In this document: positions 6,001 to 36,456 of the stretch, piece by piece
Layout of the letters: the number at the start of each line of letters is the position of its first letter
Position numbering within the stretch: position 1 is the first letter of the stretch
From: Microlunatus elymi
GTDB lineage: Bacteria; Actinomycetota; Actinomycetes; Propionibacteriales; Propionibacteriaceae
Assembly: GCF_007362775.1 (NCBI RefSeq)
Contig: NZ_CP041692.1
Span: forward strand, 1,488,001 to 1,552,000
DNA: 64,000 bases
Reading direction: 5' to 3'
The notes under the pieces: model-generated
Seen by the model: only the letters and a program-made list of their open reading frames with translations
What the model was told of the DNA's origin: nothing
Databases searched by the model: none
Made by a program: the position numbers and the translations under genes

Positions 6001-6054
6001 CCGACTTGTCAGCGTTAGACGTCGCTATAGCGCTTCTTAAGGCTGACAACTCGG
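6001..6054. repeat. Palindrome family 1, copy 1
   Basis: Outer arms CGACTTGTCAGCG and GGCTGACAACTCG flank a core that contains TCGCTATAGCGC. The element starts on the base after the SGNH hydrolase stop codon and lies 55 bp upstream of the DUF559 gene. It is less perfect than copy 2 (7039-7094). Confidence 0.85.
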
Positions 6055-6108
6055 GGGTGTGGATAACTCGGCTGGTGTCCCGCGCGAACTGCGGCAGAGT
6101 TTCGGACC

Positions 6109-7098
6109 ATGTTCCCGGGTACAGAGGGCGATCGGCGGCTGGCGGCGACGGCACTACGGCAAGCAGGTGCGGTCCACCGTGACCAACTCCGAGACCTTGG
6201 CGTCACGGCATCGTTCGTACGTGCGCAATTGGCCGCTCGTCGATGGATGGCGATCGGCGAGTCGGTGGTGATAACGCAGAACATCGCGCCCGGACGTCTG
6301 CAGACGATGTGGGCCGCCGTGTTGGACGCGGGTCCGGCGTCCTTGCTGGGTAGTCACACAGCCCTGGAACTAGCGGGCTTTGAAAGCCGCGCACGTGAAC
6401 GGGAAGTGATCCACCTGATCGTTCCGAGGGGTCGGCACACAACACCTCTGCCCGGTGTGCGAGTACACGAGTCGCGACGAATCCGTCCGGGAGACGGCAC
6501 GGTGATCGGCGGTCTGCCGTGTACCCCGGTTGCGAGATCTGTGGTTGATGCCGCTGCATGGCAACCGTGGCCGCGGTTCGCTTGCATGATGCTTGCGATG
6601 GCTGTGCAGCAGCGGCTCTGCACGGTCGAGCAACTCGACGAGGCTCTCGGTCGCGTCGGTCGTGTCCGGCACAAGCGCTACATGAGGTTGGCGCTGGTCG
6701 ACATTGCAGGAGGTGCGCAGGCACTGGGCGAGATCGACATGGCCCGAGTCTGCCGGCGATTCGGTCTACAGCCGCCCAAGCGCCAAGTGCGGCGCAAGGA
6801 CGCGAGCGGGAAATGGCGGTATCTCGACTGCGAGTGGGATCTGCCGACCGGGGAGATTCTGGTGTTGGAAATTGACGGCCGACATCACTATGACGTCAGC
6901 CAGTGGGAGGCCGATATGCGCAGGGAGCGTGGAGTCGTGGTGAGCCGGCGGTGGGTGTTACGGGCCACCGCGTTCGAAGTCCGGCTCGAGCCGGGTCCGT
7001 TGGTGGCCGACCTGATCTCGATGGGCGTACCCAGAATCTCCGACTTGTCAGCGTTAGGAAGCGCTATAGCGCGTCGAGACGCTGACAAGTCGGATTAG
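6109..7098 (+). CDS. AbiEi-like winged-helix / DUF559 (Vsr-like nuclease fold) protein
   Basis: A 329-residue protein of a group often listed as AbiEi-family antitoxin domain or DUF559. The N-terminus (about 10-70) looks like a winged helix (LAATALRQAGAVHRDQLRDLGVTASFVRAQLAARRW). The C-terminal ~110 residues resemble the very-short-patch-repair/DUF559 endonuclease fold: YLDCEWD, then LEIDGRHHYDVSQWEADMRR, then a late strand. The Glu/Asp pair in this region could be a metal site, but nuclease activity is inferred only. No toxin partner is adjacent. The last 19 residues (SDLSALGSAIARRDADKSD) and the stop codon are supplied by a palindromic repeat, and a sister repeat lies just upstream. Its stop overlaps the stop of the convergent ugd gene. 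Confidence 0.7.
   Translation: MFPGTEGDRRLAATALRQAGAVHRDQLRDLGVTASFVRAQLAARRWMAIGESVVITQNIAPGRLQTMWAAVLDAGPASLLGSHTALELAGFESRAREREVIHLIVPRGRHTTPLPGVRVHESRRIRPGDGTVIGGLPCTPVARSVVDAAAWQPWPRFACMMLAMAVQQRLCTVEQLDEALGRVGRVRHKRYMRLALVDIAGGAQALGEIDMARVCRRFGLQPPKRQVRRKDASGKWRYLDCEWDLPTGEILVLEIDGRHHYDVSQWEADMRRERGVVVSRRWVLRATAFEVRLEPGPLVADLISMGVPRISDLSALGSAIARRDADKSD
7039..7094. repeat. Palindrome family 1, copy 2 (perfect, coding)
   Basis: Perfect 15-bp arms TCCGACTTGTCAGCG / CGCTGACAAGTCGGA around the 12-bp palindrome GCGCTATAGCGC at 7061-7072, with 7-base spacers on each side, so the whole 56-bp element is symmetrical about 7066.5. It is read as the C-terminus of the DUF559 protein and could also be a bidirectional terminator between two convergent genes. 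Confidence 0.9.
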
Positions 7099-8411
7099 AG
7101 GGTGGCGGCGCGGCCTAGTTGTACGAGTTTCCAGCCGGCAACGTGCCAGGTGGCGGGGTTGAGCTTCAGGCGGGCGTCGATGATGATCTTGGTCTTCACC
7201 AGGTCCGCCAGTGCGGCGGGGTCGAGATTACGGAATTCGGGCCATTCGGTCAGGTGCAGGACGATGTCCGCATCCCGTACGGCGGCCTCGACGGTGTCGA
7301 CCTGGGTGAAGTTCTCCCGCGGTGCCAGCTTGGCCTGCGGATCGAAGATGATCACCTCGGCGCCGCGGGCATGCAGTTGATCGGCCACCGTCAGGGCAGG
7401 GGAGTTGCGTGTGTCGTCGGTCCCCGGCTTGAAGCTCGCCCCCAGCACGGCGACCCGCTTGCCGTCCACCGAACCGCCGAGTTGATCAACAGCGAGCTGG
7501 GTGACCTCGGCCCGCTGACCGTTGTTGATCTTCTCCACGCTCTCGATCAGGTTGCTCAGTACATCGACACCGTGTTCGTCGGCGCTGTAGGCCAGAGCCC
7601 TGATGTCCTTGGGAATGCAGCCGCCGCCGAAGCCGAGACCGGCGTTCAGCATGCCGCGGCCGATCCGCTTGTCGTAGCCGATCGCGTCGGCGAGCTGGGT
7701 GACGTCGCCACCGGTCGCCTGGCAGAGCTGCGCCATCGCGTTGATGAAGCTGATCTTGGTCGCCAGGAACGCGTTGGCGGCGTTCTTGATCAACTCCGCG
7801 GTGGCGAAGTTGGTGATCACCCGCGGCGTGTCCTCGCTGAACGGGATCGCGTAGACCTGGTCCAGGATCGCCAGGGAAACCTCGTCCTCGATGCCGAGCA
7901 CAATCCGATCCGGACGCAAAGTGTCCTCGACGGCAAGGCCCTCGCGCAGGAACTCGGGATTGAACGCCAGATCGACGGCATCCCCAGCCGGGGCGAGTGC
8001 ACGGATCTGCTGCCGCAATGCCGACGCGGTGCCGACCGGGACGGTGGATTTGTTGACGATCAGTGTGGGCTTGGTCAGCAACGGCGCCAGCCCGTCGCGT
8101 ACGGAGTTGATCTGGGCGAGGTCGGCCGCGCCGGACGGCGCCTGCGGAGTGCCGACGCAGATGAAATGCACGTCGGCCCAATCGGCGATGTCGGCGTAGT
8201 CGGTGGTGAAGCGGAGCCGGCCGCTTGCGGTGTGTCGTTCCAGCAGGGGGTCGAGGTTGACCTCGTACATCGGCGCCTGGCCGGAGTTCAGCAGCTTGAC
8301 CCGCTCGGGCTCGACGTCGACCCCGATCACCTCGTGCCCGAACTCGGCCATCCCGGCCGCGTGAGTGGTGCCGAGGTAGCCCGTACCGATGACGCTGATC
8401 CGCAAAGTCAC
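7095..8411 (-). CDS. ugd: UDP-glucose 6-dehydrogenase
   Basis: Oxidises UDP-glucose to UDP-glucuronate with two NAD+, providing precursors for cell-surface polysaccharide. At 438 residues it has the usual length. The N-terminal Rossmann motif is ISVIGTGYLGTTHAAGMAEFG with the acidic GVDVEPERV end. Further motifs are the STVPVGTA and FNPEFLREG blocks and the catalytic Cys in GFGGGCIPKDIRAL near residue 265, followed by the C-terminal UDP-binding domain (LGASFKPGTDDTRNSPA). The start GTG 8411 (MTLRISVIG) is where homology begins; the frame is open far upstream. Its TAA at 7095-7097 overlaps the TAG of the convergent DUF559 gene. Confidence 0.93.
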   Translation of the reverse strand: MTLRISVIGTGYLGTTHAAGMAEFGHEVIGVDVEPERVKLLNSGQAPMYEVNLDPLLERHTASGRLRFTTDYADIADWADVHFICVGTPQAPSGAADLAQINSVRDGLAPLLTKPTLIVNKSTVPVGTASALRQQIRALAPAGDAVDLAFNPEFLREGLAVEDTLRPDRIVLGIEDEVSLAILDQVYAIPFSEDTPRVITNFATAELIKNAANAFLATKISFINAMAQLCQATGGDVTQLADAIGYDKRIGRGMLNAGLGFGGGCIPKDIRALAYSADEHGVDVLSNLIESVEKINNGQRAEVTQLAVDQLGGSVDGKRVAVLGASFKPGTDDTRNSPALTVADQLHARGAEVIIFDPQAKLAPRENFTQVDTVEAAVRDADIVLHLTEWPEFRNLDPAALADLVKTKIIIDARLKLNPATWHVAGWKLVQLGRAATL

Positions 8412-8443
8412 GCCTGCGATTCTCACATACCGAGCACTCCACA

Positions 8444-8498
8444 CCGAGTTGTCAGCGTCACGAGGCGTTATGGCGCCTCGTGAGGCTGACAAGTCGGG
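8444..8498. repeat. Palindrome family 1, copy 3
   Basis: Outer arms CCGAGTTGTCAGCG and GGCTGACAAGTCGG enclose a strong inner palindrome CACGAGGCG / CGCCTCGTG (8459-8467 and 8474-8482). It sits between the divergent ugd and aminotransferase genes, ending 12 bp before the aminotransferase start. The inner arms differ from copy 2 but remain self-complementary, which implies selection for the fold. Confidence 0.85.
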
Positions 8499-8510
8499 CA
8501 GAATTCGGCC

Positions 8511-9716
8511 ATGATCCGGGTGAGTGCGACTGCGCAGGCGATGACGTCCAGTGCGATTCGGGAGATCCTCAAGATCACCCAGCGGCCCGAGGTGATCTCG
8601 TTCGCCGGCGGCCTGCCGGCGCCGGAGTTGTTCCCGTTGGCCGAGATCCGTGAGGCCACCGAGAAGGTGTACGCCGACCATGGACCGGCCGCGCTGCAGT
8701 ATTCGACCACCGAGGGACATCTGCCGTTGCGGACGTGGATCGCCGATCGCGGCGGGCTCGCACCGGACCAGGTGCAGATCACCAGCGGCAGCCAGCAGGG
8801 TCTGGATCTGCTCGGCCGGGTGCTGATCGACCCGGGCGACGTGATGCTGGTCGAGTCGCCCACCTACCTCGGCGCGCTGCAGGCGTTCGCACCCTACCGG
8901 CCGCGGTTCGTCGAGGTGATCACCGACGACGACGGCGTCGTGCCGGAGGCGCTTGAAGATCAACTTCGTACGACGCCGGCCAAGTTGATCTACCTGGTGC
9001 CGACCTTCCAGAACCCGACCGGCCGCACCCTGTCGGTCGAGCGCCGCCGGCAACTGCTGGAGATCACCAAGCGGCACGGCGTGACCATCCTCGAGGACGG
9101 TCCCTACAACGAATTGCGGTTCCGCGGCGAACGGGTGCCGACCCTGTTCGAGCTCGCGCTGGCCGACGGCACCCCGGTCGACGATCTGAACGTGATCATG
9201 CTCGGCACCTTCTCCAAGGTGCTCGCACCTGGGCTGCGCGATGCCTGGGTCCAGGGGCCGCGACCGGTGATCGACAAGCTCGTGATGGCCAAGCAGGCAG
9301 CGGATCTGCACTCGCCGACGCTGAACCAGTTGATCGTCACCGAACTGCTGGACGACGTGCTGCCACGGCAGATCAAGATCATCAGCGCCGAGTACGGCAA
9401 GCGCGCCGCGGTCATGATCAACTCCATCGCCGAGAACTTCCCCCCAGGTGTTGCTTGTACCGATCCCGACGGCGGCATGTTCTGCTGGGTGCAGTTGCCC
9501 ACCGATGCCGGCATCGACACCGAACCGATGCTGGCGGCCGCGGTGGATCGCAACGTCGCCTACGTTCCCGGCCGGCCGTTCTTCGCCTCCGGGATCGGGC
9601 ACAACACGATGCGGCTGAGCTATGTCACCTCGACCGAGCAGGAGATCCGGGCCGGCATCGAGGCGCTCGGCGCGGTGATCGAGGATCAGCTGGTTGGACG
9701 GGCGCAGCTACGCTGA
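8511..9716 (+). CDS. PLP-dependent aminotransferase (LysN/2-aminoadipate transaminase-like)
   Basis: Fold-type I aminotransferase, class I/II, 401 residues, of the group that includes LysN and MocR catalytic domains but without a DNA-binding domain. Motifs are ISFAGGLPAPELFP at residues 29-42, SQQGLDL, the YLVPTFQNPTGRTLS block, the aspartate region ILEDGPYNELRFRG and the PLP lysine in LGTFSKVLAPGLRDAW near residue 240. The C-terminal Arg that binds the substrate carboxylate is in MRLSYV. The start ATG 8511 follows palindrome copy 3 by 12 bases. LysN-like enzymes convert 2-aminoadipate to 2-oxoadipate, a step missing from the lysine operon at 51856-58266, but specificity cannot be read from sequence. 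Confidence 0.85.
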   Translation: MIRVSATAQAMTSSAIREILKITQRPEVISFAGGLPAPELFPLAEIREATEKVYADHGPAALQYSTTEGHLPLRTWIADRGGLAPDQVQITSGSQQGLDLLGRVLIDPGDVMLVESPTYLGALQAFAPYRPRFVEVITDDDGVVPEALEDQLRTTPAKLIYLVPTFQNPTGRTLSVERRRQLLEITKRHGVTILEDGPYNELRFRGERVPTLFELALADGTPVDDLNVIMLGTFSKVLAPGLRDAWVQGPRPVIDKLVMAKQAADLHSPTLNQLIVTELLDDVLPRQIKIISAEYGKRAAVMINSIAENFPPGVACTDPDGGMFCWVQLPTDAGIDTEPMLAAAVDRNVAYVPGRPFFASGIGHNTMRLSYVTSTEQEIRAGIEALGAVIEDQLVGRAQLR

Positions 9717-9720
9717 GCCC

Positions 9721-10176
9721 ATGAAGCAGGCGGCGCCCATGAACCACCGAGAGGGCGACCTCGGTCCGGAGGACGAACTGGGGGAGTTGCTGCGTCGGGC
9801 GTCGCACCGGATGCGGCACCGCTGGGTCGAGCTGCTGCAACCGTGGGAGTTGTCGCCGCATCAGGCCCGTGCCCTGCGGGCGATCGTGACCAGTGAGCCG
9901 GTGCGGTTGACCGAGCTCGCCGATCGGTTGCGGGTGGCCAATCGTTCGGTGACCGATGTGGTCGACGCGTTGGTCGAGCGCGGACTGGCCGAGCGCGGTG
10001 CGGTGCCCGGGGACCGGCGGGCGACCGCGGTCCGGGCGACCGAAGCCGGCCGGGAGTTGCTGGAGCGCACCGAGGACGCACGCCGGGCCGACGACGCCAT
10101 CTTCTTCGGCCGGCTTACCGACGCCGAGCGCCGCCGGCTGGCCGCGCTGTTGCACAAGCTCACCGAATCCGAATGA
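9721..10176 (+). CDS. MarR-family transcriptional regulator
   Basis: A 151-residue winged-helix regulator. The DNA-binding helices are in SPHQARALRAIVTSEPVRLTELADRLRVANRSVTDVVDALVERGL and the wing in VPGDRRATAVRATEAGRELL, as in other MarR proteins. ATG 9721 was chosen because it starts just after the aminotransferase stop and avoids overlap; ATG 9739 is possible. It lies about 210 bp upstream of an ABC exporter on the same strand. MarR-exporter pairs of this kind usually have the regulator repressing the pump, and a small palindrome at 10278-10290 is a candidate site. Confidence 0.88.
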   Translation: MKQAAPMNHREGDLGPEDELGELLRRASHRMRHRWVELLQPWELSPHQARALRAIVTSEPVRLTELADRLRVANRSVTDVVDALVERGLAERGAVPGDRRATAVRATEAGRELLERTEDARRADDAIFFGRLTDAERRRLAALLHKLTESE

Positions 10177-10228
10177 GTTGATCTTGGTCCGCTGATCGAG
10201 CGGGGCGGTTGCTGCGGTTCGGCTTTGC

Positions 10229-10251
10229 GGTCCTTCGACAGGCTCAGGACC
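10229..10251. repeat. GGTCCT/AGGACC short palindromic repeat, intergenic copy
   Basis: Arms GGTCCT and AGGACC around TCGACAGGCTC. The same short element recurs at 37570, 45371, 55230 and 56897 in this window. This copy is intergenic, between the MarR gene and the ABC exporter. Confidence 0.85.
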
Positions 10252-10277
10252 CGAGGTGTTGACGTGCCGGTAGATGC

Positions 10278-10290
10278 TGAGGTATCCTCA
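10278..10290. promoter_or_regulatory. Candidate operator upstream of the ABC exporter
   Basis: Short palindrome TGAGG-TAT-CCTCA, 99 bp upstream of the ABC exporter start and 100 bp after the MarR stop. Position makes it a reasonable MarR-type operator, but a 5-bp arm is weak evidence. Confidence 0.35.
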
Positions 10291-10388
10291 CAATCAGGTT
10301 AGCTCAAGATGTCGGTCGCGCCACGATCCCGTACTGGTTGATCGAGCGCCTGGACCGCCTTGAGTCCGTACGATGAAAGGACTTGCCT

Positions 10389-12272
10389 TTGCCTGCCACT
10401 ACCACACTTCCACCACCCGATGCACCGTCCCGTGCCGGTGACCAACGCGGCCGCGGCGGCCGCGGCGGGCCCGGCGGCGGTTTCGGCCCCGCGAAGATCG
10501 ACCCCGAGGACCGCGCCCAACTCGCCGAGAGCCCGGTCAAGATCGCCAGGATCCTTAAGCTGTTCCGACCGTACCGAGGCCAGTTGATCATGGTCACCCT
10601 GATCATCGTCGGGACCTCGGTGATCGGCTTGGCCAGCCCGTTCCTGCTGCGCGAGATCATCGACGTCGCCCTGCCGCAGCAGGACGTCCGGCTACTCGTG
10701 ATCTTGGTTGCGATGATGCTCGCCGTCACCGTGGTCACCTCACTGTTCGGCGTACTGCAGACCTGGATCGCGACCAAGGTCGGCCAGCAGGTGATGCACA
10801 CGCTGCGGACCAGAGTCTTCAGCCACCTGCAATCCCAGTCGATGTCCTTCTTCACCGGCGCCCGCACCGGCGAGGTGACGTCCCGGCTGACCAACGACAT
10901 CGGCGGCATGCAAAACGTCGTCACCACCACCGCCACCTCGATCGCCAGCAACTTGACCACTGTCGTCGCCACCGCGATCGCGATGATCGCCCTGAGCTGG
11001 CAGCTCAGCCTGTTCACCCTGCTGGTGCTGCCGCCGGCGATCATCCTGACCCGTCGGGTTGCCTTGCTACGCAGGGAAATGACGCTGCAACAGCAGCGTC
11101 GGATGGCCGACCTGACCAGTCAGATCGACGAGGGGCTGTCGGTCAGCGGCGCCCTGCTCACCAAGACGATGGGTGCCACCAAGGCCAGCTCGCGGCGGTT
11201 CGCCGAAACCTCGACCGAGCTTGTTGATCTTGCTCTGCGATCGGAGTTGGCCGGCCGTTGGCGGATGGCGACGATGTCGATCATCTTCGCCGCGATCCCG
11301 GCCCTGATCTACCTGGTGGCCGGCCTGCCGATCACCGGCGGCACGATCAGCATCGGCACCTTGATCGCCTTCGCTTCCTTGCAGGGCAGCATCTTCCGGC
11401 CGATGATGGGTCTGCTCAACGTGGCCGCCCAATGGATCGCGTCGATGGCGTTGTTCTCCCGGATCTTCGGCTACCTGGACACCACCACCGACGTTCCCGA
11501 GCCGACCCATCCGCTGCCGATTGATCCGGCCGCGATCCGCGGCGAGGTGGAGATCGTCGGCGTCGACTACCGCTATCCGGGAGCCGAGACCGGCGCCCTC
11601 GACGGCATCGAGCTGAGGGTTTCGGCCGGCGGCAGCCTGGCCCTGGTCGGCGCGACCGGTTCCGGCAAGTCCACGCTCGCCTCGCTGGTGGCCAGACTGC
11701 GCGATCCGAGTACTGGTTCGGTCACCGTCGACGGCTACGACCTGCGTGAGCTGTCCGCCGAGACGATCGCCGCAGTGGTCGGCGTGGTCACCCAGGAGAC
11801 GTATCTGTTGCACGGAACGGTCCGCGACAACCTGTTGATCGCTGCCCCGGAAGCGACCGACGAACAGCTGTGGCAAGCCCTCGAGGTGGCGCAGATCGAC
11901 GACCTGATCGGCGGTCTGCCGGCCGGGTTGGACACCGTGGTCGGCGCCCGTGGGCAGCGGTTCTCCGGCGGCGAGCAACAACGCCTGGCGATCGCCCGGG
12001 TGGTGCTGCGCGACCCGCGGGTCCTGGTCCTCGACGAGGCCACCAGCGCCCTGGACAACGCCACCGAACGCCGACTGCAGACCGCACTGGACGCGTTGAG
12101 CCGCGGCCGGACCACGATCACCATCGCGCACCGGCTCAGCACCATCGAGCACGCCGACCAGATCGCCGTACTTGATCATGGTCGAGTGATCGAACTCGGT
12201 GCCGACGCCGATCTGCGGGCCCGCGCCGGGGCGTACGCGCAGCTGGCCGGGGATCCGGTGAACGTCTCCTAG
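10389..12272 (+). CDS. ABC-type exporter, fused membrane and ATPase domains
   Basis: Half-transporter of the MsbA/LmrA type, 627 residues, expected to dimerise and export lipids, drugs or peptides. A Gly/Arg/Pro-rich head of about 40 residues precedes six membrane helices (about 60-340). The nucleotide-binding domain has Walker A GATGSGKST near residue 420, a Q-loop (VVTQETYLLHGTVRDNL), signature FSGGEQQR, Walker B VLVLDEATSALD and the H-loop His in TIAHRLSTIEHADQ. TTG 10389 is preferred over TTG 10383 because GAAAGGA at 10375-10381 is then seven bases away. A MarR gene upstream may control it. Substrate unknown. Confidence 0.92.
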   Translation: MPATTTLPPPDAPSRAGDQRGRGGRGGPGGGFGPAKIDPEDRAQLAESPVKIARILKLFRPYRGQLIMVTLIIVGTSVIGLASPFLLREIIDVALPQQDVRLLVILVAMMLAVTVVTSLFGVLQTWIATKVGQQVMHTLRTRVFSHLQSQSMSFFTGARTGEVTSRLTNDIGGMQNVVTTTATSIASNLTTVVATAIAMIALSWQLSLFTLLVLPPAIILTRRVALLRREMTLQQQRRMADLTSQIDEGLSVSGALLTKTMGATKASSRRFAETSTELVDLALRSELAGRWRMATMSIIFAAIPALIYLVAGLPITGGTISIGTLIAFASLQGSIFRPMMGLLNVAAQWIASMALFSRIFGYLDTTTDVPEPTHPLPIDPAAIRGEVEIVGVDYRYPGAETGALDGIELRVSAGGSLALVGATGSGKSTLASLVARLRDPSTGSVTVDGYDLRELSAETIAAVVGVVTQETYLLHGTVRDNLLIAAPEATDEQLWQALEVAQIDDLIGGLPAGLDTVVGARGQRFSGGEQQRLAIARVVLRDPRVLVLDEATSALDNATERRLQTALDALSRGRTTITIAHRLSTIEHADQIAVLDHGRVIELGADADLRARAGAYAQLAGDPVNVS

Positions 12273-12311
12273 TCTTATGGGCGTGAGTGCCCCTGGACCC
12301 GGTCGCGTCCG

Positions 12312-16178
<3,867 letters not shown>

Positions 16179-16231
16179 GGTGTCTCCTCCGAAGAGCGGA
16201 TTCACCCATATCGACGCCGGCGCCGACCGAG

Positions 16232-16258
16232 AACTGGGCGCCTGTGCAGCGCCCAGTT
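16232..16258. promoter_or_regulatory. Perfect 10-bp inverted repeat in a divergent promoter region
   Basis: AACTGGGCGC - 7-base spacer - GCGCCCAGTT, halfway between the divergent efflux pump (start 16178) and the ECF sigma factor (start 16322). The 17-bp centre-to-centre spacing is what a dimeric repressor (TetR or MarR type) would use. A terminator role is unlikely because both genes point away. The regulator is not identified. Confidence 0.6.
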
Positions 16259-16321
16259 TCGAGCTCGGCCGACGTCGACAGCAGTGAAGTCGGACCACGA
16301 TCCGAAGGTGGATGGGATCAG

Positions 16322-25397: not shown

Positions 25398-25465
25398 TCT
25401 TCCGTTTGTAGCGCAGTCGAGTTTCTGCCTGCTGCCGCGATTTACCTTGGCGGCTTACTTTCCGA

Positions 25466-26040: not shown

Positions 26041-26069
26041 CAGCGACCTGACCGCGTAGGTTAATCCGC

Positions 26070-27650: not shown

Positions 27651-27670
27651 CGTTGTGCCAGACTCGCGGC

Positions 27671-28870
27671 ATGACCGAAGATGATCATCCGACGAAGTTG
27701 ATCATGACATCGCTGGCGGAGCTCGAGTCCGAGTTGATCGACTTCCGCCGCGACCTGCACGCCCATCCGGAGCTGGGGTTCGCCGAGCAGCGGACCACGA
27801 CCAAGATCATCGAGCGGCTGGTCGCGGCCGGACTGTCGCCGCACCGGCTGCCGTCCGGGACCGGGCTGGTCTGTGATCTTGTCCCGGCCGGGATGGAGGG
27901 CCGGCCGATGATCGGCCTGCGCGCCGACATCGATGCACTCCCGATCACCGACATCAAGGATGTTCCTTACAGGTCAGAGAATCCGGGCGTCTGCCATGCC
28001 TGCGGTCACGACGTCCACACCAGTGTCGTGCTCGGCACCGGGCTCGTCCTGGCCGGCCTGCTGGACCGGATGACCAAGCCGGTGCGGTTGATCTTCCAGC
28101 CGGCCGAGGAGCTCGTCCCCGGCGGTGCGCCGGCGACGATCGAGGCCGGCGTACTGGACGGCCTGGACGAGGTGTACGCGATGCACTGCGATCCGCGGAC
28201 CTCGGTCGGCCGGATCGCGCTCACCACCGGGCCGATCACCTCGGCGTTGGACCGGATCCTGGTCCGGCTGTCCGGGCCGGGCGGCCACACCTCCCGGCCG
28301 CAGCTGACCTGCGACCTGGTCGCGGCACTGGCCCAGGTCGCCGTTCAGGCGCCGCTGCTGCTCTCCCGCCGGGTCGATCCGCGCGGCGGCAGCTCGCTGG
28401 TCTGGGGCCGGATCAACGCCGGTACGACGGCGAACGCGATTCCTGCGGTCGGCGAGTTGGAGGGCACGGTTCGGTCGTTGCAGCTCAGCGGCTGGCGGGA
28501 AGCGCAGCAGCAGCTGCCCGAGCTGATCAGGCAGATCGCCGAGCCGTACGGTGCCGCGGTCGAGGTGAGCATGACCGAGGGGGTGCCTCCCACCGTCAAC
28601 GACGCGGCCGCCGTGCGACGGCTGACCGAGGCGGCCGCAGCCGTGCTGGGCGACCAGGCGGTCGGCATCACCGAGCAGTCGCTGGGCGGCGAGGATTTCT
28701 CCTGGATGCTGCAGCAGGTGCCGGGCGCGATGGCCCGGCTCGGCGTACGGAGTCCGCACGCCGACCCGGCCGAGGTTGTCGACCTGCATCAGGCCGGCTT
28801 CGACCCCGACGAAGGTGCGATCGCCACCGGCGTCAGCGTCTTCAGTCGACTGGCGCTCGGCCACGACTGA
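27671..28870 (+). CDS. M20-family amidohydrolase (HipO-like)
   Basis: Zinc amidase/peptidase of the M20D group, 399 residues, related to N-acyl amino-acid hydrolases. Metal and catalytic motifs are FRRDLHAHPELGF, GLRADIDALPI, CHACGHDVHTS (His and Asp ligands), QPAEELVPGG (catalytic Glu pair), the dimerisation-domain His in GPGGHTSRP, and GGEDFSWML (C-terminal ligand). ATG 27671 was chosen; ATG 27704 would remove a charged 11-residue lead. It starts 20 bp after the mutase stop and is probably co-transcribed. Substrate unknown. Confidence 0.88.
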   Translation: MTEDDHPTKLIMTSLAELESELIDFRRDLHAHPELGFAEQRTTTKIIERLVAAGLSPHRLPSGTGLVCDLVPAGMEGRPMIGLRADIDALPITDIKDVPYRSENPGVCHACGHDVHTSVVLGTGLVLAGLLDRMTKPVRLIFQPAEELVPGGAPATIEAGVLDGLDEVYAMHCDPRTSVGRIALTTGPITSALDRILVRLSGPGGHTSRPQLTCDLVAALAQVAVQAPLLLSRRVDPRGGSSLVWGRINAGTTANAIPAVGELEGTVRSLQLSGWREAQQQLPELIRQIAEPYGAAVEVSMTEGVPPTVNDAAAVRRLTEAAAAVLGDQAVGITEQSLGGEDFSWMLQQVPGAMARLGVRSPHADPAEVVDLHQAGFDPDEGAIATGVSVFSRLALGHD

Positions 28871-29038
28871 CGGGCTCGCGCTAACGAACTTGTATCGTCC
28901 GGCCGTGCAGATTGCCGCAGGCGCGACGCGAGCCGACCTGTCGGGCTACAGTGCCGGTTGCCAGGCACCGAACGGAGCAGGATTTCGCTGCGGGAACGGT
29001 CTTGGTCGATAGGTTCCGGGGTTTGTCGAGGAGGCGGC

Positions 29039-30181
29039 GTGAAGAAATCCATCATCAGCGTGGCGGCGGTGGCAGGAGCATTGGCGCTCGGTCTGGCGAG
29101 TTGCGCCCAGCCGCCGGGCAACGAGTCCGGCAACAGCGCCAGCCCGAAGACGTCGGCCAGCAGTCCGGCGGCCGGCGGTGGTGCCAGCGCGAGCAACGCC
29201 TCCTTCAAGGCCTGCATGGTCTCCGACTCGGGCGGCTTCGACGACAAGTCGTTCAACCAGACCTCGTACAAGGGCCTGACCGACGCCAAGAAGGAGTTCG
29301 GCATCCAGACCGGTGCGGTCGAGTCGAACAGCAACTCCGACTACGCCAAGAACATCCAGTCGATGGTGGCCGCCAAGTGCAACATCATCGTCACCGTCGG
29401 CTTCCTGCTCGCCGATGACACCCTGGCGGCGGCCAAGGCCAATCCCGACATCGATTTCGCCATCGTCGACTCGGACGACCCCAAGTTCAAGGCGGTGAAG
29501 AACCTCAAGCCGCTGGTCTTCAACACCGCCGAGTCCAGCTTCCTCGGCGGCTACCTGGCCGCCTCGATGACCAAGACCGGCAAGGTCGCCACCTTCGGCG
29601 GCACCAAGATCCCGACCGTGACGATCTTCATGGACGGCTTCGCCCAGGGCGTCGAGTATTACAACAAGCAGAACGGCAAGAACGTCCAGCTGATCGGCTG
29701 GAACGCGGCCAAGCAGGACGGCCAGTTCGTGCCCGGCGATCAGCCGTTCGAGAACGTCACCGGCGGCAAGCAGGTCGCGCAGAACCTGGTCAGCCAGGGG
29801 GCCGACATCCTCTTCCCGGTCGCCGGCCCGGCCGGTGAGGGTGCGTTGCAGACCGCCAAGGCCAGCGGCGGCAAGGTGAACGCGATCTGGGTCGACACCG
29901 ACGGCTGCATCAGCGCGGCGTCCTACTGCCCGCAGATCATCAGCAGCGTCTACAAGGGCATGGATGTTGCTGTGACGGACGTGATCAAGGCGTCGATGGA
30001 CAAGACCTTCAGCCCGGATGCCTTCGTCGGCACCCTGGAGAACAAGGGCACCGGCCTGGCTCCCTTCCACGATTGGGATTCCAAGGTCCCCGCGGATGTG
30101 AAATCCAAGCTTGATCAACTCAAGTCCGACATCATCTCCGGCAAGATCAAGATCACCTCGAAGGCCCAGCCGGGCAGCTGA
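29039..30181 (+). CDS. BMP-family nucleoside-binding lipoprotein
   Basis: Substrate-binding lipoprotein of a nucleoside ABC importer (Bmp/PnrA family), 380 residues. A type II signal peptide ends in the lipobox LASC (residues 19-22), followed by a Ser/Ala/Gly-rich linker to residue 58. The mature domain has the family signature MVSDSGGFDDKSFNQTSYKGL and later GGYLAASMTKTGKVATFGG and VAGPAGEGALQTA. GTG 29039 has GAGGAG five bases upstream. It is the first gene of a run that continues with ATPase, two permeases and cytidine deaminase, so nucleosides are the likely ligand. Confidence 0.92.
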   Translation: MKKSIISVAAVAGALALGLASCAQPPGNESGNSASPKTSASSPAAGGGASASNASFKACMVSDSGGFDDKSFNQTSYKGLTDAKKEFGIQTGAVESNSNSDYAKNIQSMVAAKCNIIVTVGFLLADDTLAAAKANPDIDFAIVDSDDPKFKAVKNLKPLVFNTAESSFLGGYLAASMTKTGKVATFGGTKIPTVTIFMDGFAQGVEYYNKQNGKNVQLIGWNAAKQDGQFVPGDQPFENVTGGKQVAQNLVSQGADILFPVAGPAGEGALQTAKASGGKVNAIWVDTDGCISAASYCPQIISSVYKGMDVAVTDVIKASMDKTFSPDAFVGTLENKGTGLAPFHDWDSKVPADVKSKLDQLKSDIISGKIKITSKAQPGS

Positions 30182-30206
30182 GTTGATCAACCGGAACTGA
30201 CACGAG

Positions 30207-31841
30207 ATGGCGGATGCGGTGCGCGGTACAGACGGCGGACCCGGTCGGGGCCGCGGTGATGCCGAGCCGGTCCCGGCCGATGCCGGGATCGGCCTGCGGC
30301 TGCGGCAGATCACCAAACGGTTCGGCTCGCTCGTCGCCAACGACCGAGTTGATCTTGACATCCGGCCCGGTGAGATCCACTGCCTGCTGGGTGAGAACGG
30401 GGCCGGCAAGTCGACCCTGATGAACGTCCTGTACGGGCTGCTGCAGCCGGACGAGGGCGAGATCGCGGTCGACGGCGTGCCGCGGATCTTCAACAATCCC
30501 AAGCAGGCCATCAATGCCGGCATCGGGATGGTGCATCAGCACTTCATGCTGGTGGACGTGTTCTCGGTCGCCGAGAACATGATCTTGGGCCGTGAGCCGG
30601 GCAGCGGCGGCATGCTCAACCTGGGCACGGCTCGGCGGCGGGTGCGCGAACTGTCGAAGCGGTACGGCCTGCAGGTCGACCCCGATGCGCTGGTCGAGGA
30701 CCTGCCGGTGGGCGTCCAGCAGCGGGTCGAGATCTTGAAGGCGCTGGCCAACGACGCCGAGTACTTGATCTTCGACGAGCCGACCGCGGTGCTCACTCCG
30801 CAGGAGATCGACGAACTGATGCAGGTGATGCGGACGCTGCGCGACGAGGGCAAGGCGATCGTCTTCATCACCCACAAGTTGCGCGAGGTCCGGGCCATCG
30901 CCGATCGGATCACCGTGATCCGACGCGGCGCCGTGGTCGGCGAAGCGGATCCGGGTGACTCGGAGTCCAAGCTGGCCGAGATGATGGTCGGCCGTCAGGT
31001 CAGCCTGCTGGTGAGCAAACTGCAGCACAAGACCGGCGACGTACGGCTGCAGCTGTCCGGTGTCACCATCGCCAGCCCGGCCGGCGCGGTGATGGTCGAT
31101 GATCTTGATCTCGACGTGGCCGGCGGCGAGATCGTCTGTATCGCAGGAGTTCAGGGCAACGGACAGAGCGAGCTGGCCGAGGCAATCATCGGCACCGTCG
31201 AGGTGCGCTCCGGCGACATCCGGGTGGACGGCCGCTCCATGATCAAGTTGACTCCCAAGCAGCGCATCCGGGTCGGGCTCGGCTTCGTACCGGAGGATCG
31301 CCAGCACGACGGCTTCGTCGGTGAATACAGCGTGGCCGAGAACCTGGTGCTGAACACCTTCGACGAACCGCCGTTCGCTCGCGGCGCCGCGCTCAACCTG
31401 ACCAAGATCAACCAGAACGCCGTCGAACTGGTGGAGGAGTTCGACATCCGTACCCAGGCGATCGACACTCCGGTCGGTTCACTGTCCGGCGGCAATCAGC
31501 AGAAGGTCGTACTGGCGCGGGAGATGTCGCGCGAGCTGTCGGTGCTGATCGCCAGCCAGCCGACCCGCGGGGTGGACGTCGGCGCAATCGAGTTCCTGCA
31601 CCAGCGCCTGGTGTCCGCTCGGGATCGCGGCAGCGCGGTGCTGATCGTCTCCACCGAGCTGGACGAGGTGTCCGCGCTGGCCGACCGGATCGCGGTGATG
31701 TATCGCGGCAAGATCATCGGCGTCGTCGACGCGAACACCTCGCGTGAGGTGCTCGGCATGATGATGGCCGGGATGTCTGCCGAGGACGCCCGCGCGCAGG
31801 CCAGTCAGTTGACCAGCGAGACCGAGGGAGTGGTGACGTGA
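30207..31841 (+). CDS. Nucleoside ABC transporter ATPase (tandem NBDs)
   Basis: A 544-residue protein with two nucleotide-binding domains, as in sugar/nucleoside importers of the YufO/NupA type. Domain 1 has Walker A GENGAGKST (near residue 63), signature LPVGVQQRVEI and Walker B YLIFDEPTAVL. Domain 2 has a degenerate Walker A (AGVQGNGQSE) and intact LSGGNQQKVVLARE, with ASQPTRGVDVGA in place of a canonical Walker B. This asymmetry is usual for the family. The stop overlaps the next start (GTGA), which fits coupled translation with the permease. Confidence 0.93.
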   Translation: MADAVRGTDGGPGRGRGDAEPVPADAGIGLRLRQITKRFGSLVANDRVDLDIRPGEIHCLLGENGAGKSTLMNVLYGLLQPDEGEIAVDGVPRIFNNPKQAINAGIGMVHQHFMLVDVFSVAENMILGREPGSGGMLNLGTARRRVRELSKRYGLQVDPDALVEDLPVGVQQRVEILKALANDAEYLIFDEPTAVLTPQEIDELMQVMRTLRDEGKAIVFITHKLREVRAIADRITVIRRGAVVGEADPGDSESKLAEMMVGRQVSLLVSKLQHKTGDVRLQLSGVTIASPAGAVMVDDLDLDVAGGEIVCIAGVQGNGQSELAEAIIGTVEVRSGDIRVDGRSMIKLTPKQRIRVGLGFVPEDRQHDGFVGEYSVAENLVLNTFDEPPFARGAALNLTKINQNAVELVEEFDIRTQAIDTPVGSLSGGNQQKVVLAREMSRELSVLIASQPTRGVDVGAIEFLHQRLVSARDRGSAVLIVSTELDEVSALADRIAVMYRGKIIGVVDANTSREVLGMMMAGMSAEDARAQASQLTSETEGVVT

Positions 31842-33151
31842 GCCCGGCAGCCGATCAGAATCCGGGTCCGGCCGCTGATCAAGCCCCCGGTGCGGGTTCG
31901 GGGGCTGCGAGCTCACGGGCGCCGGGCTCACGGGGTACGGGATCGGACAAGCCGTCGTTGAGCGATGCGATGCGGCCGAGATCGACCACCCGCAAGGGAT
32001 TCCCGTGGACCGATGTCTGGACCACCCTCGGCGCGATCCTGCTGGCGTTGATCGTCGGAGCCATCCTGATGGTGGTCACCGACCCGGACGTGGTCAGCAA
32101 GTACGCCTACTTCTTCGCCCGTCCCGGCGATGCGCTGAGCGCCTCCTGGGACAAGATCAGCAGTGCCTACCTGGCGTTGCTGAAGGGTGCTGTCGGCGGC
32201 TGGGTGCCGATCACCGAATCGACCGCCCAGGCGGCGCCGTTGATCATGGCCGGGCTCGGCGTCGCGCTCGCCTTCCGTACCGGCTTGATCAACATCGGCG
32301 GACAGGGACAGGCGATCTGGGGTGCGATCCTGGCCGCCTACGTCGGGTTCACCCTGCACATGCCGCCCGGGCTGCAGCTGATCGTCGCGATCATCGCCGG
32401 CATCGTCGGCGGGGCGATCTGGGGCGGCATCGTCGGCTGGTTGAAGGCCCGGACCGGGGCGCACGAGGTGATCGTCACGATCATGCTCAACTACGTCGCG
32501 GTCGGCATGCTGGCCTACCTCTTGACCACCACCGCGTTCCGCCGGCCGGGACGTACCGATCCGATCTCGCCGGTCGTCGACTGGAACGCGACCTTCCCGC
32601 GGCTGGCCGGATCGCAACTGCACCTGGGCTTCTTCCTCGCGCTCGCCGCGGCGGTGCTGGTCTGGTGGATCCTGGAACGATCCACCCTCGGCTTCAGCTT
32701 GAAGGCGGTCGGGATGAACCCGCACGCCGCGGCGACCGCCGGGATGAGCGTGTCCCGGGCAACCGTGCTGGCGATGCTGATCGCCGGCGCGCTGGCCGGT
32801 CTGGCCGGTGCGAACGCCGCGTTGGCACCGAGCGCGAGCGGAGTGCCGGTGCCGCTGTCGGCCGGCATCGTCGGCACCGTCGGCTTCGACGCGGTCACCG
32901 TCGCACTGCTCGGACGATCGAAACCGCTCGGCGTGGTGCTGGCCGGATTGCTCTTCGGCGCGCTGCACGCCGGCGGGCTGGCGATGCAGAGTTCGGCCGG
33001 TACGCCGCTGACGCTGACCACGGTGCTGCAGGCGGTGATCGTGTTGTTCGTCGCCGCACCGGCGCTGGTGACACGGATCCTGCCGTTCGTCAAGGCCCGC
33101 AAACACGCCACGGCGAGTGGTGTGCCGACCTCGACGGGGGCCCTGTCATGA
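31838..33151 (+). CDS. Nucleoside ABC transporter permease 1 (YufP-like)
   Basis: A 437-residue permease of the BPD_transp_2 family. A Ser/Pro-rich cytoplasmic head of about 55 residues precedes nine or ten membrane helices. Family sequence includes GLGVALAFRTGLINIGGQGQ, GAHEVIVTIMLNYVAV and SLKAVGMNPHAAATAGMSV, and the coupling region lies just before the last helices. It overlaps the ATPase gene by four bases and the second permease by four bases, so all three are one translational unit. Confidence 0.92.
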   Translation: MSPAADQNPGPAADQAPGAGSGAASSRAPGSRGTGSDKPSLSDAMRPRSTTRKGFPWTDVWTTLGAILLALIVGAILMVVTDPDVVSKYAYFFARPGDALSASWDKISSAYLALLKGAVGGWVPITESTAQAAPLIMAGLGVALAFRTGLINIGGQGQAIWGAILAAYVGFTLHMPPGLQLIVAIIAGIVGGAIWGGIVGWLKARTGAHEVIVTIMLNYVAVGMLAYLLTTTAFRRPGRTDPISPVVDWNATFPRLAGSQLHLGFFLALAAAVLVWWILERSTLGFSLKAVGMNPHAAATAGMSVSRATVLAMLIAGALAGLAGANAALAPSASGVPVPLSAGIVGTVGFDAVTVALLGRSKPLGVVLAGLLFGALHAGGLAMQSSAGTPLTLTTVLQAVIVLFVAAPALVTRILPFVKARKHATASGVPTSTGALS

Positions 33152-34509
33152 CCGCCGACGAGACCCGAACACGTACGGTCGAAGACGGCGGCGGCGATCA
33201 GAACGCGGACAACTCGGCGGCCGCCGGCGTACCGACCGACGTCGGGCCGATCGAATTCACCCGGGTGGAGGCACCGGCGGCACGGCGTCAGCGGCTGACC
33301 ACCGGCTCGCTGATCTGTCTGGTGGGCGTCCTGTTGTTGATCTTGGTGCCGTTCACGCACGGGTCGGCACGGTTCGCGCTGTCGGATGCGTTCGACCCGG
33401 TCCAGCTGCCGACGATCGTGCTGCCCGGCATGCCGATCGTGTTGATCTGCGCGCTGCTCTGTCTGGCTTCGGGCGCGGCGTTCCTGACTGGTCGGGCTCG
33501 TGGCCGGATGGAAGCCGTCGCGGGCACGGTCGGCGGCGTGGCGTTCCTGATCGGATTCCTGACCTGGGCCGCGGCCGGACGGGATCTGCCGTTCCCGGTC
33601 AGCAATCAGTTCGCCGGCACCCTGGCGGTGGCGACGCCGCTGGTGCTGGGCGCGCTGGCCGGTGTGCTCGGCGAACGGGCCGGCGTGATCAACGTGTCGA
33701 TCGAGGGCCAGTTCCTGGTGGCTGCGTTGGCGGCGGCGATCGTCGGATCGCTGACCCAGTCGGTGTTCTGGGCGATCGTCGCGGCAGCGATCGCCGGGGT
33801 TGGGATGGGTGCGCTGCTGGCGCTGTTCGCGATCAAGTACCTGGTCAACCAAGTGGTGCTCGGGGTGGTCCTGAACATGCTGGCCACCGGCATCACCGGC
33901 TTCATCTTCGACCAGCTGGTGGAGCCGAACCAGGCGACGCTGAACTCGGCTCCAGTGCTGGAGAAGATCGCCATCCCGGGCCTGTCCAAGATTCCCTTCT
34001 TCGGCCCGGTGCTGTTCGACCAGAACGTGCTGGCCTACCTGGCCGGAATCTCGGTGGTGGTCGTCTGGCTGCTGCTGTTCAAGACCAAGTGGGGGCTGCG
34101 GGTCCGGGCCGTCGGCGAACACCCGCGGGCGGCGGACACGGTCGGCATCAGCGTGGTCGGGATGCGGTGGTCGGCGGTGCTGGCCGGTGGCCTGTTCGCC
34201 GGTCTCGGCGGCGCCTTCTTCACGCTCGCGTCCACCGGCGCCTTCTCCAAGGAATTCACCGTCGGCAACGGCTTCATCGCGCTGGCCGCGGTGATCATGG
34301 GGCGCTGGCACCCGGTCTGGGCCGCGATCATGGCGCTGTTCTTCGGCTTCGTCACCCAGATGGCCTCGCAGCTGCAGACCCTCAGCACCCCGGTGCCGAG
34401 CCAGTTCCTGCTGATGTTGCCGTACGTCGCGACGGTGATCGCGGTGGCCGGTCTGATCGGCCGGGTCCGAGCGCCGGCCGCCGACGGCGTTCCCTACGAG
34501 AAGGCCTGA
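33148..34509 (+). CDS. Nucleoside ABC transporter permease 2 (YufQ-like)
   Basis: A 453-residue BPD_transp_2 permease that pairs with the preceding one. After a 50-residue acidic/charged head, two helices form an N-terminal extension (about 53-72 and 92-125, with an Arg-rich turn). The family core follows: LGERAGVINVSIEGQFLVAAL, LVNQVVLGVVLNMLATGITG, RVRAVGEHPRAADTVGISV and GAFFTLASTGAFSKEFTVGNGFIALAAVIMGRW. ATG 33148 overlaps the previous stop (ATGA), and its own stop overlaps cdd by one base (34509). Confidence 0.92.
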   Translation: MTADETRTRTVEDGGGDQNADNSAAAGVPTDVGPIEFTRVEAPAARRQRLTTGSLICLVGVLLLILVPFTHGSARFALSDAFDPVQLPTIVLPGMPIVLICALLCLASGAAFLTGRARGRMEAVAGTVGGVAFLIGFLTWAAAGRDLPFPVSNQFAGTLAVATPLVLGALAGVLGERAGVINVSIEGQFLVAALAAAIVGSLTQSVFWAIVAAAIAGVGMGALLALFAIKYLVNQVVLGVVLNMLATGITGFIFDQLVEPNQATLNSAPVLEKIAIPGLSKIPFFGPVLFDQNVLAYLAGISVVVVWLLLFKTKWGLRVRAVGEHPRAADTVGISVVGMRWSAVLAGGLFAGLGGAFFTLASTGAFSKEFTVGNGFIALAAVIMGRWHPVWAAIMALFFGFVTQMASQLQTLSTPVPSQFLLMLPYVATVIAVAGLIGRVRAPAADGVPYEKA

Positions 34510-34913
34510 TGAGCACCAGTCTCGCCTCGGTCGACTGGGAGGCGCTGCGAGCGGCGGCGCGGGAGGTCAGTGCGCGCGCCTACGCTCCGTACTCCAACTA
34601 TCCGGTCGGCGTGGCCGGTCTGGTCGACGACGGCCGAATCGTGGTCGGCTGCAACGTCGAGAACGCCGCCTACGGCGTCGGCCTGTGCGCAGAGTGCGGC
34701 ATGGTCTCCTCGCTGCACGCCGGCGGCGGCGGCCGGCTGATCGCGGTCGCCTGCGTCGACGGCGACGGCGAGACGCTGATGCCCTGCGGCCGCTGCCGTC
34801 AACTCCTCTGGGAGAACGGCGGCCCCGACTGCCTGCTCGACACCCCCGCCGGCATCCAACCGATGACCGCGGTGCTGCCCCAAGCCTTCGGCGTGGAGAA
34901 CCTCCTGCGGTAG
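34509..34913 (+). CDS. cdd: Cytidine deaminase
   Basis: Deaminates cytidine and deoxycytidine to uridine and deoxyuridine, 134 residues, the usual tetrameric class. Catalytic features are VENAAYGVGLCAECG, in which the zinc Cys and proton-shuttle Glu sit (CAE), and the second zinc pair in PCGRCRQ. The N-terminal ARAYAPYSNYPVG is the substrate loop. It is fused by a TGATG overlap to the permease gene, which ties import directly to salvage. In related genomes thymidine phosphorylase comes next; here a palindrome and a broken foreign gene follow. Confidence 0.95.
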   Translation: MSTSLASVDWEALRAAAREVSARAYAPYSNYPVGVAGLVDDGRIVVGCNVENAAYGVGLCAECGMVSSLHAGGGGRLIAVACVDGDGETLMPCGRCRQLLWENGGPDCLLDTPAGIQPMTAVLPQAFGVENLLR

Positions 34914-34926
34914 TGCCCCGCCGGCA

Positions 34927-35006
34927 GCGGTAAAAACGTCGGACGGGACGCACTGCACCCCGCCGTTACAGGGGTTGTAGCCCATCCCGTCCGACACTTT
35001 TACCGC
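34927..35006. repeat. Palindrome family 2, copy A
   Basis: 22-bp arms at 34927-34948 and 34985-35006 (left arm begins GCGGTAAAAACGTCGG) match at 20 of 22 positions when one is reversed. The 36-base centre holds a second nested hairpin (CTGCACCCC against GGGGTTGTAG). The element starts 13 bp after the cdd stop and ends about 30 bp before the recognisable primase-helicase fragment. Confidence 0.88.
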
Positions 35007-35020
35007 ATTCGGGCAACCAT

Positions 35021-36127
35021 GGTCGGAGTGCTGCCGACGCACGCTACCTACCGCTCACCAACGAAGTCGTCGAGGCTCACCTGCGGGGCCACGCGTTCAT
35101 CGGGCAGGATCCGATGAGGAGCGACAACACCTGTCACTACCTCGCCGCAGACTTCGATGGTCCCGCGGCCGTGCTGGACGCGCTGGCGTACACCAAGGCA
35201 GCTCGATCGCAGGGGGTTCCTGCCGCCTTGGAACTGTCGCAGTCCGGGCGCGGTGCGCACGTCTGGATCTTCTTCGCGGCCGCCGTACGGGCCGACCTTG
35301 CCAGGGCCCTCGGAACCGCTCTGATCCACGAAGCCAGCATGCTGCGGGGCTGGATGGAGCTGACGTCCTATGACCGGCTCTTCCCCAACCAGGACGTGCT
35401 GCCGGCCGGCGGCTTCGGCAATCTGATCGCCGCGCCGTTGCAGGGAAAGCGTCGGCGGGATGGTCTGACAACCTTCCTCGATCTCTCCACGCTGGAGCCG
35501 CACGCGGACCAATGGCTGTTTCTCTCCACGATCGACCGGCTGAGCCCGAGCGAACTCGCCCGTTACCGACATCGTCGACCGTGCCGGGTCGAGGCTGTCG
35601 GTCACTGATCTGCGTAATGCCGGCAGGGAGATCGATGTCGAACTGAATGCTGAGCTGTCGCCCGTTCAACAGCAGGCGGTGAGCGCTGTGCTGGCTCACG
35701 ACGACGGCGTCCTGGTCGCTCCGCCGGGATCGGGGGAAGACAGTGATGGCGTGCGCGGTGATCGCGGAACGCTCGACGTCGACGTTGGTACTGGTGGACC
35801 GCAAAGCCCTGGCGGAGCAATGGCGTGATCGGTTGCGCACCTTTCTCGGGATTCCGCCCGGTCAGTTGGGTGGTGGCCGTCGCAAGCTCAGCGGCGTGGT
35901 GGACATCGCGATGATGCCGACGTTGGCCCGGCGGGACGACATTGCGGAGCTGACCGATGGCTACGGACAGATCGTCGTCGACGAATGCCATCACTTGGCT
36001 GCCGCCAGCTACGACCACGCGGTGAAGCGGATCGGCGCGCAGTTCTGGCTCGGGCTGACGGCCACGCCGACTCGACGCGACGGACTCGAAGATCTGATCA
36101 ATTGGCAGCTCGGGCCCGTTCGGCACG
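35021..36127 (+). pseudogene. Broken TOTE-type archaeo-eukaryotic primase / helicase gene
   Basis: Fragments of a TOTE conflict-system protein are readable in three frames. Frame A (to 35608): RYLPLTNEVVEAHLRG, YLAADFDGP, SQSGRGAHVWIFF and SYDRLFPNQDVLPAGGFGNLIAAPLQ, the AEP primase domain. Frame B (about 35556-35740): DRAGSRLSVTDLRNAGREID and VLVAPPGSG, the helicase entry. Frame C (from about 35740): [36 protein letters not shown] and [10 protein letters not shown]. The B-to-C shift lies in a G5 run (35732-35736) inside Walker A; four Gs would restore GSGKT. The N-terminal zinc region, much of the linker and the second RecA domain are gone. The decay is real even if one G is a sequencing slip. 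Confidence 0.8.
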
Positions 36128-36385
36128 CCGTCGCCGACCAGCAACGTGTGGGTCAGAACAGCAAACGGTGGCTATCCGGTCGACATCCTGTTTCGCCGCG
36201 AGCGGGTGATTGTCGAGTTCGATGGTTACGCCTACCACAGCGATCGGGCTGCGTTCGAGCGAGACCGCGCGCGCCGCAACGAGCTCGTGCTCGCCGGCTA
36301 CACCGTGCTCAACTTCACCTGGGCCCAGCTGTGCGACCGGCCGGAGTGGGTGATCAACTGCATCCGCCGGGCGCTCGGACGGTAA
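36128..36385 (+). pseudogene. DUF559 (Vsr-like) domain fragment joined to the helicase remnant
   Basis: About 85 residues match the C-terminal half of DUF559 proteins: [41 protein letters not shown] and [18 protein letters not shown]. The N-terminal winged-helix half is missing, and the fragment begins exactly where helicase similarity ends (after LGPVRH, about 36127), in a different frame. The stop codon TAA (36383-36385) lies inside the left arm of the second family-2 palindrome. A GTG at 36146 could start a 79-residue product, so residual expression is possible, but I treat it as a remnant. Confidence 0.7.
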
Positions 36386-36456
36386 GAACGTCGGTGGGGA
36401 TTGCAGTTCGCCCCGGGGGACGTGGGTCCAAGCGATCGCGTCCGACGTTATTACAC
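36380..36456. repeat. Palindrome family 2, copy B
   Basis: Arms CGGTAAGAACGTCGG (36380-36394) and CCGACGTTATTACAC (36442-36456) match the CGGTAA-AACGTCGG arms of copy A. The centre contains a G/C-rich TTCGCCCCGGGGGA core. Copy B is less perfect than copy A. It overlaps the DUF559 fragment stop and ends 26 bp before add. Confidence 0.8.

Follow-up and report, generated by a model that had tools for sequence, protein, structure and literature searches.

Introduction

REPtrons are described as consisting of a stationary RAYT (TnpA-REP) gene that adjoins dispersed, mostly intergenic palindromes with which it has co-evolved (PMC8266576; PMC3116915). CGTC-tagged repetitive extragenic palindromes (REPs) are also dispersed and are said to have no dedicated transposase; the five phyla from which they are reported in the available part of that source do not include Actinomycetota (PMC3733652). 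According to PMC7319586, the inverted repeats to which Rv2827c and the AbiEi antitoxins of type IV toxin–antitoxin systems bind are located in their own promoters. Here, a 64,000-nucleotide stretch of the Microlunatus elymi genome (contig NZ_CP041692.1, positions 1,488,001 to 1,552,000; hereafter the window) is analyzed with respect to a gene (unit 1) that encodes an AbiEi-like domain fused to a DUF559-type nuclease and lies between two copies of a palindrome (family A). The association of such genes with palindromes is confirmed far above chance and is general within the actinobacterial AbiEi–DUF559 clade.

Like a REPtron, the system has a gene bracketed by repeats, and the repeats are dispersed and mostly extragenic. 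Unlike in a REPtron, the enzyme is AbiEi–DUF559 rather than an HUH (Y1) transposase, and the palindromes are symmetric, 46–54 bp long and without a conserved tag, which in REPtrons is mostly GTAG. As there is neither an HUH enzyme nor a tag, the pair is not a REPtron. AbiEi antitoxins resemble the N-terminal half of the unit 1 protein, which, however, carries a nuclease domain as well and is associated with dispersed repeats. Vsr-like (EDxHD) homing endonucleases, of which I-Bth0305I is an example, show a weak fold match to the catalytic domain but have one homing site instead of many dispersed palindromes. The second DUF559 region of the window (unit 2) shares primase, helicase and DUF559 pieces with TOTE conflict systems, but it is broken and bracketed by palindromes of its own (family B), and unit 1 lacks TOTE domains. 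Many kinds of miniature inverted-repeat transposable elements (MITEs) and insertion sequences (ISs), although not all, have a target-site duplication, whereas the present palindromes have none. No description of nuclease genes with cognate flanking palindromes was found in the open PMC literature, as judged by titles and the beginnings of abstracts.

Matched Palindromes Flank AbiEi–DUF559 Genes

The original prediction, made from the window alone, stated that both of its DUF559 regions have a palindrome upstream and another at the stop codon, and that each pair has its own sequence. Both statements agree with what is seen in units 1 and 2 (Table 1), families A and B being unrelated in sequence. 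In unit 1, the upstream palindrome ends 54 bp ahead of the start codon, and the downstream palindrome covers roughly the last 18 codons of the open reading frame. A third copy of family A, also 54 bp long, stands between divergent genes with no adjoining DUF559 gene; one of these neighbors is named UDP-glucose dehydrogenase from its sequence rather than from a family match. The original prediction noted neither this copy nor the dispersal of the family. Unit 2 as a whole (35114–36385) is a broken, TOTE-like primase–helicase–DUF559 remnant, and a strict family B pattern occurs at four places in the genome, the upstream copy in the window being one of them.

Table 1. Positions in the window of the two DUF559 units and their palindromes, with the supporting evidence or RNA-fold z-score.
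Feature	Position	Strand	Evidence or z-score
Palindrome, family A, upstream copy (54 bp)	6001–6054		-4.7
Unit 1 gene, 329-amino-acid protein with AbiEi-like N-terminal half and DUF559-type nuclease C-terminal half	6109–7098	+	Homology, alignment, structure model
Palindrome, family A, downstream copy, across the gene 3' end	7040–7093		-9.0
Palindrome, family A, without its own DUF559 gene, between UDP-glucose-dehydrogenase-like gene (minus) and aminotransferase gene (plus)	8444–8497		-10.4
Palindrome, family B, upstream copy	34927–35006		-7.9
Unit 2, piece of AEP-TOTE primase domain, broken	35114–35608	+	E 8e-52
Unit 2, piece of ResIII helicase domain, broken	35752–36075	+	E 5e-16
Unit 2, DUF559 piece, broken	36146–36385	+	E 3e-9
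Palindrome, family B, downstream copy, across the stop codon	36382–36454		-2.1 (weak)

Several comparisons show a large excess of matched flanking repeats, as had been predicted. Homologues were drawn from the same genus and order and from a set of named genomes, mostly Nocardioides, Knoellia and their relatives (80 kept of at least 112 relatives). Among 92 loci, 86 had both flanks, and a matched upstream and downstream repeat (score of at least 16) is present at 77 of these, compared with 14/516 cross-locus pairs and 12/444 other positions. Matched flanks were found at 64 of 72 homologue loci, as against only 4 of 138 other genes of 600–1500 bp that have intergenic DNA on both sides at the same loci. 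Inverted repeats on both sides (score of at least 14) occur at 32/80 loci versus 22/7410 overlapping control windows, the upstream and downstream copies being equally frequent.

In a sample of 39 loci matching Pfam DUF559 (ten from the M. elymi genome, hereafter G000, plus the 29 that scored best in a set of 149 genomes belonging to the phylum), matched flanks are present at 17, versus 0/304 cross pairs. Three of these 17 (L324, L326 and L329) encode short proteins and have simple or other repeats; short DUF559 proteins of about 130 amino acids are without convincing flanking pairs. At the ten G000 loci, a pair is present at six and absent at L002, L007 and L010, and unit 2 (L004) has a low flank score because the flank was measured from its DUF559 piece. 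The short DUF559 gene at L329 lies near TGTTTCACGTGAAACA repeats, which we take to be parS sequences.

The AbiEi–DUF559 Protein

The unit 1 protein itself has no match in Pfam, DUF559 (PF04480) included, whereas 66 of 82 aligned homologues match DUF559 at E<=1. Its N-terminal half is matched by PADLOC AbiEi models (E 8e-20). Glu208, Asp240 and Glu254 occupy invariant columns in the alignment of 82 sequences; together with the profile matches, these acidic residues give the likeness to DUF559/PD-(D/E)XK nucleases, and residues of this type presumably form the active site. The AlphaFold2 model is confident (pLDDT 91.8, pTM 0.86), and the nearest solved folds found by Foldseek are Streptococcus agalactiae AbiEi (6y8q, E 1.2e-5) and Rv2827c (1zel, E 6.6e-4). 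I-Bth0305I (3r3p) matches the catalytic domain weakly (probability 0.75, E 0.49).

Carriage of the gene by phages or plasmids was rejected: no homologue was found in plasmids and no relative in viral contigs, the one match being a 31% identical homologue at MT837139.1:3670-4521, part of a 7.6-kb entry under the name Bacteriophage sp. whose DNA may be bacterial.

Dispersed Copies of the Palindrome

In the 5.12-Mb G000 genome, a search with a strict family A pattern yields 28 copies, against none for a reversed-pattern control; all 28 copies are equal in length, although the gap was free to vary by 30. A wider pattern with a shorter outer arm has 68 copies (control 0), which fall into at least three subfamilies by eye. 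A covariance model, with scoring limited to the best 150 out of 2767 candidates, gave 134 two-strand matches in G000, equivalent to 68 places by hand count. No known RNA family was detected in the window at gathering thresholds. Across 20 genomes, wide-pattern copies number 240 in G004, 68 in G000, 20 in G001, 3 in G010, 2 each in G005 and G011, and 0 in the 14 others. The gene has on either side a copy of a palindrome whose length is nearly fixed, 54 bp here and 46 bp in a Nocardioides clade, and the same type is dispersed in the genome in few to 240 copies, mostly behind stop codons where looked at. In other lineages, 20-kb neighborhoods of the gene hold 10 extra copies in 922 kb (at 6/56 loci) versus 18 in 9.17 Mb at other loci, a weak excess.

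The original prediction further suggested that each DUF559 lineage recognizes a cognate hairpin and that the nuclease could nick a hairpin or cruciform. Pairing between the two inner arms was compared with that of arms shuffled between copies. Across the G000 subfamilies, pairing is far above that of shuffles (0.709 vs 0.492; 0/2000), and mixed sets from G001 (12/20 copies) and G015 (19/19 copies) also beat shuffles, this excess being gone once they are sorted to one type (10 and 14 copies). The G000 sets of one type, sorted by eye, comprise 26 of the 28 strict copies and 13 and 10 copies of two other types, and give 0.654 vs 0.678, 0.744 vs 0.766 and 0.808 vs 0.787; the corresponding values are 0.842 vs 0.817 in G001 and 0.732 vs 0.757 in G015. 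In none of these five small sets (n = 10–26) do inner arms pair better than shuffled arms. As inner arms do not covary within subfamilies, each half tracks the consensus of its subfamily, with no visible copy-by-copy upkeep of a hairpin. Hairpin recognition therefore finds no support here, with hairpins themselves still conceivable. The lack of a pairing excess is expected if double-stranded half-sites are read, and a half-site reading fits the arm sequences better than a hairpin reading. Stronger conservation of the outer than of the inner arms was dropped as an argument, because it follows from the search pattern.

Two further G000 subfamilies (for example, L219 and L221–L224; L220, L225 and L228) have inner arms like AAGGTGGTTGGG and TCGGTGGTTTGG, respectively. 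Either they are read by the same protein or they have perhaps been left behind by paralogs since lost.

Palindrome Type and Protein Clade

Each nuclease lineage tends toward its own palindrome, and the two diverge together, as the original prediction had proposed. In a co-divergence test with 75 of the 92 loci, flank-repeat similarity climbs with protein identity (Spearman 0.44; Mantel 0/500). Flank repeats are alike in 82% of pairs at protein identities of at least 60%, in 55% at 50–60% and in 2–3% at 25–40%; the upper bins are inflated because some close pairs share homologous flanks.

A second line of evidence is the distribution of the 46-bp type, GTCGTGTGCC...GGCACACGAC, of the Nocardioides clade represented by L109, which is constant in length among the copies listed and present in 8/39 genomes. 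It occurs in 6/6 genomes that have a homologue at least 59% identical to the L109 protein versus 2/33 others (Fisher p 9e-6), this cut having been picked after the data were seen; at a 50% cut, the numbers are 7/19 versus 1/20 genomes (p 0.02). The two exceptional carriers are G045, with a 54% homologue, and G070, with a 34% homologue. Likewise, the wide family A pattern is present in 4/4 genomes with a homologue of at least 50% identity versus 2/16 others (p 0.003, 20 genomes). Two genomes with such a homologue outside this set, G015 and G018, have 19 and 0 copies of a stricter pattern; despite the latter count, G018 has a related palindrome pair at its gene.

Paralogs in a single genome provide a third line. 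Close homologues number one in G000 and two in G004, and the two G004 paralogs (the C11 and C6 genes) are flanked by two palindrome types, both of which are also dispersed. A 400-kb sample of G004 contains 12 copies: the two of the C11 gene's own pair, seven more of the C11 type (one a variant), two of the C6 type and one mixed.

In G000, G004 and G001, the gene adjoins the same UDP-glucose-dehydrogenase-like gene, although protein identity is 58% and the palindromes have different inner arms. At this orthologous site, gene and palindromes changed together in place. Both L101 and L112 have the gene flanked by an nnr-type (Carb_kinase/YjeF) gene and acpS, and the nnr-type neighbor is also present at L091; the palindromes of these three loci differ in outer or inner arms. 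Vertical descent is established at these two sets of sites only. In G010, the homologue (L052) matches in two pieces that overlap, as would a gene divided between two frames, and one of the only three wide-pattern copies lies beside it.

Placement of the Copies and Alternative Explanations

Placement was analyzed for the 86 G000 copies listed, the wide-pattern copies among them reaching as far as position 3725096 and three covariance-model places of odd length or weak score being omitted, with a crude gene caller. Eight copies within called open reading frames (L026, L193, L196, L201, L204, L210, L229 and L235) were excluded, and the remaining 78 lie outside called genes. A stop codon is located within 5 bp of 49/78 copies and within 10 bp of 62/78, compared with 3.6% and 6.1% of random intergenic points. 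Convergent gene pairs hold 31/78 copies (5% of random points) and divergent pairs only 3/78 (37% of random points); the caller missed the unit 1 gene and its neighbor, so the copy at 8444–8497 was not classed as divergent. At nine copies (L179, L195, L198, L199, L200, L219, L228, L231 and L234), a TGA at the palindrome end is itself the called stop codon. It arises where the second position of the palindrome, usually C, is T, a change seen in 15/172 arms.

This proximity to stop codons, the convergent excess and the divergent deficit would suit a host 3'-end element, in which the protein is a DNA- or RNA-binding factor for termination, protection of mRNA 3' ends or separation of convergent genes, the copies are retained by host selection, and cutting is minor or absent. 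The AbiEi-like character of the N-terminal half is also in its favor. We nevertheless consider this explanation, the main rival, rather unlikely, since it does not account for the two-sided bracketing of the gene in most lineages, for the invariance of catalytic-type residues, or for a copy number that varies between 0 and 240 in related genomes. Also, base counts beside the 86 copies show no T-run after the palindrome, such as an intrinsic terminator would have, and the outward flanks are G-rich.

An improbable explanation is that the palindromes are autoregulation operators, as in AbiEi antitoxins, with the dispersed copies as by-products. The promoter binding known for AbiEi and Rv2827c and the distance of one copy from the start codon would be consistent with this, but downstream copies match upstream ones in frequency and many copies are at stop codons elsewhere. 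Moreover, no DUF1814-type (AbiEii) toxin gene, which would be adjacent in an AbiE system, was found among the 20 of 25 neighboring genes scanned, at 11/80 loci; one ABC-transporter ATPase among them also matches a putative AbiEii toxin model (PF13304).

Movement of the palindromes as REPs or MITEs by another enzyme (a Y1/RAYT or IS transposase), the DUF559 genes being passengers, seems quite improbable. In being short, dispersed and situated at the 3' ends of genes, the palindromes do resemble REPs; however, Y1_Tnp (PF01797) was found in 0/20 related genomes at E<=0.001, including G000 and G004, in a search that was positive in 5/14 control genomes and did not include other IS families. Base counts reveal no conserved tag tetranucleotide beside the 86 copies, a target duplication is likewise lacking, and passengers would not co-diverge with the palindromes. 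Ordinary intrinsic terminators that flank the genes by chance would place hairpin-capable sequence behind stop codons, but this is highly improbable given the rarity of matched flanks at other genes, the copy between divergent genes, arms that form one sequence family of near-fixed length, and the missing T-run.

Possible Turnover of the Palindromes

Between G000 and G011, 13 syntenic junctions at family A copies were screened, and the alignments of 10 were inspected. Nine lack a family A palindrome in G011, those at 2630956 and 4415876 aligning poorly on one side. At two others (3717761 and 1673053), only near-exact half-sites are present in G011, and at 1439942 there is a degraded palindrome pair. 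At G000:C1:1313481 and its G011 counterpart L165, flanks about 94.5% identical enclose full elements of different subfamilies with different inner arms, which could reflect either an in-place swap or two insertions. Of the signs that elements turn over, this possible swap is the strongest hint.

Other G011 counterparts differ in detail. At L321, which corresponds to G000:C1:3717761, two AAGTTGTCAG stretches resembling half-sites share one orientation, and L317, corresponding to 1673053, has one such stretch. L301, corresponding to G000:C1:4815648, has another inverted repeat (CAAGGGCCCTGAGCTTGTCGAAGG and its complement) where G000 has family A.

A Proposed Nuclease–Repeat Pair

We give about an even chance to the idea that AbiEi–DUF559 proteins and their palindromes form a nuclease–repeat pair, similar to yet distinct from REP–RAYT, in which recognition and cutting lead to spread and homogenization by repair. 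In a dimer, both outer half-sites would be recognized by the AbiEi-like domains, with cutting by the DUF559 nuclease within or beside the palindrome. Repair templated by another copy would homogenize copies, and occasional ectopic repair may put new copies behind stop codons, where they would do little harm or may aid 3'-end function. The gene itself would be passed on mainly vertically. The original notion of a mobile or selfish system thus stands in part: dispersal is established and movement is indirectly supported, but the gene looks stationary where tested and was not found on plasmids.

Several observations weigh against such a pair. Binding, cutting and movement are processes that we infer, and placement at stop codons could equally reflect host function. 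Direct repeats around the 86 copies are at chance level, giving no target-site duplication, and no target motif lies beside them. The matched pair is missing at 9/86 loci. As for cognate relationships, in G053, the palindrome flanking the 59% homologue, GTCGTGTGCT, is close to but distinct from the 46-bp type, which is found at the 55% paralog instead; G056, with a split 54–58% homologue, is without the 46-bp type; G005, G011 and G070 carry palindromes without a close homologue; and the two additional G000 subfamilies have no close cognate gene in G000. The flanks of the G011 junctions are mostly 65–86% identical, with two of the nine poorly aligned, and loss in G011 is possible.

The nucleases and their palindromes have the appearance of a system of a new kind that spreads or binds repeats. 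That it forms a separate, non-HUH class of repeat spreaders, defined by a PD-(D/E)XK nuclease that has borrowed the DNA-binding domain of an antitoxin, an origin independent of RAYTs, lineage-tied palindromes and a mode of cutting plus recombinational repair, is a tentative proposal to which we assign slightly less than an even chance. If true, nuclease-linked dispersed palindromes would have arisen outside HUH transposases, which bears on the spread of REP-like repeats for which no transposase is known. The dozens of natural protein–palindrome pairs make specificity testable by swapping, even within G004. If the proposal is true, a large family of actinobacterial DUF559/AbiEi genes would gain a role.

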